From Brachyspira pilosicoli P43/6/78 (lineage in GTDB: Bacteria; Spirochaetota; Brachyspiria; Brachyspirales; Brachyspiraceae), in the NCBI RefSeq assembly GCF_000325665.1, contig NC_019908.1, positions 992,001 through 1,056,000 of the forward strand: 64,000 bases of DNA, read 5' to 3'. Each line of letters starts with the position of its first letter. The stretch's first letter is position 1. The translations under genes were made by a program, and so were the position numbers. The notes under the pieces were generated by a model. The model did not search any database and was not told the DNA's origin. It worked only from the letters and a program-made list of their open reading frames with translations. Shown piece by piece: positions 40,965 to 41,585 of the stretch.

Positions 40965-41585
40965 ATGTTTGATTCAGATTTTATGAACAAATATGGAGTA
41001 TCTGATAAGTATCATAACTTAGATTCAGATATGCAAAACGCAAGGTTAAGGTTAATTGATAAAGTAATAGAAACAGGCTGCACTATAAGCAAAGAAGAAG
41101 CTATAAAAATATGCGGCGATGAAAAATTGTACAATTCTTTAATAGAAAAAGAAATTGTTACTATGAGCGGTGATTCTGTTGCATTTCTTTATCCTGTATC
41201 AGCTATGGAAACTAATCATAGAGTAACACTTTCAGACGGAAGAGAGTTTTGTTCTATGTGTGCTATTGATGCTTTAGGCTCTTATAGTTTATTTCATCAA
41301 GATACAGAAATTAATTCTATATGCTCTCAAACTGGAGAGAAGATATATGTAAGAATTAAAGACAGACAAATAGTAGAACATTCGCCTAAAGATATTCATG
41401 TTATTCATGTTGATCTTAATAAAAACAAAAACTGGGCTAGCACTTGCTGAAATATAATGAATTTCTTTGGTTCAAAGAATGATATGAATGAGTGGCTTAA
41501 AAATCAAGAGGTTGATAACAATACAACATATCTTTTAGATTTACAAACCGCTTTTAAAGTAGCAACTGCTATATTTCAGATATAA
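40965..41585 (+). CDS. saoL: MerB-like organomercurial lyase family selenoprotein (SaoL-like)
   Basis: Predicted 206-residue protein resembling alkylmercury lyase. A winged-helix-like N-terminal half is followed by the MerB domain: CSMCAIDALGSYSLF near residue 98 holds the first catalytic Cys and the Asp. The second catalytic site is ASTC-U-NIMNFFGS: a TGA (41448-41450, residue 162) directly follows a Cys codon where homologues have CC. The family C-terminus then continues for 44 codons (MNEWLKNQ, LDLQTAFKVATAIF) to TAA at 41585. A SECIS-like hairpin lies at 41463-41479. MerB cleaves carbon-mercury bonds by protonolysis with two Cys and an Asp; a Cys-Sec pair should bind the metal more tightly. 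Substrate is inferred. Confidence 0.85.
41463..41479 (+). promoter_or_regulatory. bSECIS hairpin of the MerB-like selenoprotein gene
   Basis: TTCTTTG (41463-41469) and CAAAGAA (41473-41479) form a perfect 7-bp stem with the loop GTT. The loop begins 20 bases after the UGA. The 7-bp stem and GUU loop are the same design as at 8707-8723. Confidence 0.82.

Follow-up and report, generated by a model that had tools for sequence, protein, structure and literature searches.

MerB cleaves carbon–mercury bonds with three residues, Cys96, Asp99 and Cys159, whose roles have been described (PMC4525700). An alkylmercury lyase MerB-like selenoprotein was already listed in a 2022 review, and a 2026 review (PMC13188914) lists SaoL (NF040728) as a MerB-like protein with a cysteine–selenocysteine (CU) motif, credits the sao operon to Haft and Gwadz (2023, J Bacteriol), and records selenocysteine (Sec) forms of SaoB, SaoC, SaoX, SaoP and SaoT in other species; our description of the sao system is based on the table of this review and on NCBIfam names. 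Here, we describe saoL of Brachyspira pilosicoli P43/6/78, which lies in a window of 64,000 nucleotides (NC_019908.1, a single contig of 2,555,556 bases, positions 992,001 to 1,056,000) and contains an in-frame TGA that is almost certainly decoded as Sec. In view of the NCBIfam family and the two review listings, SaoL with its operon is an already known kind, and the gene, to which a first-pass annotation made from the sequence of the window had drawn attention, is not supported as novel.

The in-frame UGA of saoL

The open reading frame (ORF) of saoL runs from 40965 to 41447 and meets a TGA immediately 3′ of TGC (Cys161), past which the same frame stays open for 44 codons (163–206) until it is closed by TAA at 41583–41585. 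The match to the MerB family (PF03243) has an E-value of 1.4e-17 if the frame is cut at the TGA and improves to 6.3e-30 with readthrough (104.2 bits, gathering score 27), and the protein also exceeds the curated cut-off of its own family (Table 1). The first-pass annotation had reported the TGA after a cysteine codon, the 44-codon tail, a GUU-looped hairpin of 7 bp and the relationship to MerB, and each is borne out.

SaoL was found in 11 of 26 Brachyspira genomes, with the TGA in all 11; in the ten intact copies, that of P43/6/78 included, the Cys codon and the TGA are codons 161 and 162. The protein of B. pilosicoli strain T010 is 98% identical. The proportions of nonsynonymous and synonymous differences (pN/pS) among the Brachyspira copies are 0.111/0.545 (0.20) before the TGA and 0.081/0.452 (0.18) after it, and beyond the final stop the sequence differs widely among species. 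The machinery for Sec is encoded in the genome, where selA (299606–300910), selB (297723–299507) and selC, the tRNA-Sec gene (301041–301128), are adjacent and selD lies at 1793973 (genome coordinates), all above their cut-offs. A search for GrdA, meant as a check on other selenoproteins, gave no match in the genome and none in the controls either, and is therefore uninformative; glycine reductase selenoproteins have been reported from a published B. pilosicoli genome (PMC2897892).

Downstream of the TGA, a perfect 7-bp hairpin, UUCUUUG-GUU-CAAAGAA, places the start of its stem at 12 and its loop at 19 nucleotides. In the genes of the window, 0.5% of codon positions are followed at such a distance by a stem of at least 7 bp with a G-led loop. 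Among 119 degenerate codons of Brachyspira saoL with an invariant amino acid, 89 vary silently, whereas the stem codons show no silent variation (6 of 6) and only loop codon 169 varies within the hairpin. Distant homologues likewise carry a 7-bp hairpin 12 nucleotides past the TGA, but with different base pairs. These observations support the hairpin as a putative conserved selenocysteine insertion sequence (SECIS) of bacterial type at the right distance from the UGA, as had been expected from the first reading of the sequence; Rfam at gathering scores gave no match anywhere in the window.

Because four lines agree, namely the sel genes, the conserved TGA, the constrained tail and the conserved hairpin, UGA codon 162 is almost certainly decoded as Sec by SelB and tRNA-Sec with the aid of the hairpin, and 40965–41585 very probably encodes SaoL, the MerB-like member of the sao operon, with a Sec residue.

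Two further copies may be mentioned separately. The saoL of B. alvinipulli (L039, 6001–6628), the eleventh copy, is broken near the TGA, where a short stretch around this codon is duplicated and the frame changes. The saoL of genome G001 (L030) has TGA both as its Sec codon, at position 162, and as its terminator, and thus seems to use UGA in two senses within one gene. A genome-wide use of TGA for an amino acid was considered and rejected, since saoP and the saoL of G001 terminate on TGA.

Active site, proposed mechanism and alternatives

SaoL Cys99 and Asp102 align with MerB Cys96 and Asp99. In the alignment with MerB2 (PDB 5c17), Sec162 is paired directly with the catalytic Cys; against MerB of PDB 1s6l, a gap placed by the program would instead pair Cys161-Sec162 with Cys159-Cys160. 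Catalytic Cys159 of 1s6l, counted along the alignment from its stated start, lies five residues ahead of the FF motif, and the same spacing separates Sec162, and the equivalent Cys or Sec of other aligned homologues, from this motif. The spacing favors Sec162 at the catalytic Cys159, and residue 162 thus falls in a Cys/Sec column, the check that the first-pass annotation had set. The proposal of a Cys-Sec active-site pair thus stands for Sec162; the pair as such is not peculiar to SaoL, since the MerB position matched by Cys161, 158, is also occupied by Cys in some ordinary MerBs and in two plasmid-borne MerB relatives; only the Sec is distinctive. SaoL stays far below the cut-offs of the MerB equivalog models PRK13239 (67.5 vs 193 bits) and NF033555 (60.1 vs 200 bits).

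From MerB chemistry and the content of the sao operon, the following mechanism may be proposed. An organometal would be captured or imported by SaoX, SaoB, SaoP and SaoA, and Cys99, Sec162 and Asp102 would act as Cys96, Cys159 and Asp99 do in MerB. The metal would be held between the thiolate of Cys99 and the selenolate of Sec162, and the carbon–metal bond would be broken by proton transfer (protonolysis) assisted by Asp102. SaoT and SaoC may then receive the metal or maintain the site in its reduced state, and the metal ion would be passed through SaoT or SaoC to SaoE and exported. We would give this scheme, with an organomercurial or a related organometal as the probable substrate, about an even chance. 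The Sec might also raise the affinity for mercury or shift the target, as the first-pass annotation proposed.

Several points weigh against SaoL as a Sec-dependent lyase in a functional pathway. Its Sec is a prediction from the sequence. The fold energy of the hairpin is not exceptional for the saoL sequence (z −0.11), and 13% of the protein-preserving synonymous shuffles give a stem as long; owing to this ordinary stability and to the shuffles, the hairpin by itself is weak evidence, and its conservation is the stronger. An AlphaFold prediction of SaoL with seven close homologues reached a mean predicted local distance difference test score (pLDDT) of 45.9, too poor for active-site geometry, and was not used. 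No MerA match above the cut-off was found in the genome, and the weaker matches occur in all control genomes too; the classical mercury pathway is thus lacking, and the proposed route is not expected to finish with elemental mercury. Finally, a frameshift in the assembled saoA may mean that P43/6/78 has a partly inactive operon.

The lack of MerA, together with an operon made up mostly of transport genes and a thioredoxin-like protein, and with no report of SaoL activity in the literature examined, fits an alternative in which SaoL is a Sec protein other than an organomercury lyase, serving the transporter as a carrier that binds a metal or metalloid, or acting on a different organometal. It concerns the mechanism and leaves the identity of the Sec untouched; with all three MerB catalytic positions kept in SaoL (Cys99, Asp102 and Sec162), we regard it as a serious possibility, if somewhat short of an even one. 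Far less probable is that the TGA is a true stop, with a MerB-like product of 161 residues and a tail that is no more than a decayed relic. In its favor, the NF040728 model reaches only to residue 161, which probably reflects automatic annotation that takes the TGA as the end, and saoA is frameshifted in P43/6/78; however, ten genomes conserve the protein sequence of the tail under a constraint equal to that of the body, the tail holds the conserved FF part of MerB, and the Sec machinery is present, which makes this explanation very unlikely. A Cys codon misread in sequencing as the origin of the TGA, as a seemingly indel-prone assembly (rpoD, a glycosyltransferase and saoA are all split) could suggest, is refuted by the relatives, since ten other Brachyspira genomes share the TGA at protein identities down to about 70%. 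None of the three outcomes that the first-pass annotation had named beforehand as fatal to Sec decoding came about: the sel genes are present, the relatives carry both TGA and tail, and the ten genomes rule out a read error.

As for saoA, the frameshift falls at an A-rich stretch and is confined to the P43/6/78 assembly, the gene being in one frame in 10 of 10 relatives examined. In the same window, the essential gene rpoD (30232–32000) is split into two ORFs, which hold sigma-70 regions 1.1–1.2 and 2–4, and a group 1 glycosyltransferase gene (34020–35142, minus strand), a single frame in L057, is likewise split in two. Assembly indels are therefore a likely cause of the split in saoA, although the strain may carry a real mutation.

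MerB-like genes with two TGA codons in other Spirochaetota

The SaoL model also gave weaker matches in other Spirochaetota, four of which (L051, L053, L054 and L056) carry a TGA at each of the two catalytic Cys positions of MerB. The four genomes concerned all have selA and tRNA-Sec, whereas a homologue in genome G037 (85% complete), in which selA and tRNA-Sec were not found, has Cys at both positions; genome G139 carries a paralogue with Cys at both positions (L052) in addition to a double-TGA copy. The double-TGA proteins fall under the SaoL cut-off and over the Pfam MerB cut-off.

The second TGA of each gene is followed, as in SaoL, by a 7-bp stem starting 12 nucleotides downstream, here with a GGUC loop; since this loop has four nucleotides and not three, the 3′ arm is displaced by one base. 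Stem pairs 6 and 7 are changed on both sides between groups, and stems of this kind were reached in 2–3% of synonymous shuffles. After the first TGA, a hairpin is clear only in L056 (GUU loop). In the closer pair, L053 and L054, pN/pS over the three segments is 0.29, 0.20 and 0.09, the latter two values indicating purifying selection past each TGA; in the more distant pair, L056 and L051, the values after the two TGAs are 0.29 and 0.56.

The occurrence of the four genes in separate genomes that also encode selA and tRNA-Sec, the conserved segments and the hairpins with changed pairs after the second TGA suggest that some Spirochaetota MerB-like proteins probably have Sec at both catalytic Cys positions, which would form a bis-selenolate metal site. 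No sao genes were recognised beside the double-TGA genes in the neighborhoods looked at, and plasmid searches with these proteins returned only a few MerB-annotated relatives at below 35% identity. No description of a two-Sec MerB was found in the literature examined, including the passages on selenoproteins consulted in PMC13188914, and these proteins may be new. If the interpretation is true, SaoL is not the only Sec-containing branch of the MerB fold, and the double-TGA genes encode enzymes in which both catalytic positions that bind the metal carry selenium.

The sao operon of Brachyspira and described systems

As judged by NCBIfam models, the window holds a complete eight-gene sao operon (saoTECXBPAL) in one direction at 35495–41585 (Table 1). 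Seven of the eight genes exceed their curated cut-offs, and the two pieces of saoA fall below because the gene is split by the frameshift. Promoter and terminator scans gave results near chance level.

Table 1. Features of the sao locus (window positions) and the double-TGA genes of other Spirochaetota (positions on the locus named)
Feature	Position	Strand	Evidence or remark
saoL, MerB-like organometallic lyase, 206 residues with predicted Sec162	40965–41585	+	NF040728 191.4 bits (cut-off 140); PF03243 E 6.3e-30 read through
In-frame TGA, codon 162, read as Sec (predicted)	41448–41450	+	Codon shared by 10 intact Brachyspira copies including P43/6/78; Sec machinery in genome
Putative SECIS hairpin of bacterial type (7-bp stem, GUU loop)	41463–41479	+	Begins 12 nucleotides after TGA; position and stem conserved
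saoT, thioredoxin-like protein, CPTC (Cys form)	35495–35758	+	NF040730 131.6 bits (cut-off 65)
saoE, efflux transporter (ArsP_1 permease)	35761–36882	+	NF040736 498.6 bits (cut-off 325); PF03773
saoC, protein ending Cys-Cys-COOH, stop TAA	36876–37331	+	NF040734 164.1 bits (cut-off 80)
saoX, ABC transporter substrate-binding subunit	37362–38534	+	NF040735 502.5 bits (cut-off 300)
saoB, ABC substrate-binding protein, DCC (Cys form)	38557–39384	+	NF040727 328 bits (cut-off 140)
saoP, ABC permease, ordinary TGA stop	39336–40163	+	NF040733 390.4 bits (cut-off 295)
saoA, ABC ATP-binding subunit, frameshifted (40150–40701 and 40724–40933)	40150–40933	+	Pieces match consecutive parts of NF040729
Double-TGA MerB-like gene, L051	1186–1911	−	
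Double-TGA MerB-like gene, L056	1162–1914	−	
Double-TGA MerB-like gene, L053	1180–1998	−	
Double-TGA MerB-like gene, L054	1237–1995	−	

For a sequenced Brachyspira, the analysis confirms that what looks like a truncated gene very probably encodes a selenoprotein, and it extends the sao operon to this intestinal spirochaete. Within Brachyspira, Sec is predicted in SaoL only, and SaoT, SaoB and SaoC are Cys forms, with the Cys form of SaoT and Cys-Cys in SaoB in all copies seen. The retention of Sec in the lyase only points to this enzyme as the site where selenium is hardest to replace.

Compared with MerB (PF03243; the R831b-type enzyme of PDB 1s6l and MerB2 of PDB 5c17), SaoL is homologous over the catalytic domain and fills the positions of Cys96, Asp99 and Cys159 with Cys99, Asp102 and, by prediction, Sec162; unlike MerB, it would thus have Sec in place of Cys159, and it comes with neither a mer operon nor a MerA above the cut-off. 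The double-TGA proteins have in common with SaoL the TGA at the Cys159 position and the hairpin 12 nucleotides downstream, and differ from it in the additional TGA at the Cys96 position. With the described SaoL and its operon, the Brachyspira system shares the CU motif and the partners SaoT, SaoE, SaoC, SaoX, SaoB, SaoP and SaoA; however, as far as the review table goes, Sec forms of SaoT, SaoB and SaoC occur elsewhere, whereas the Brachyspira system would have Sec in SaoL only.
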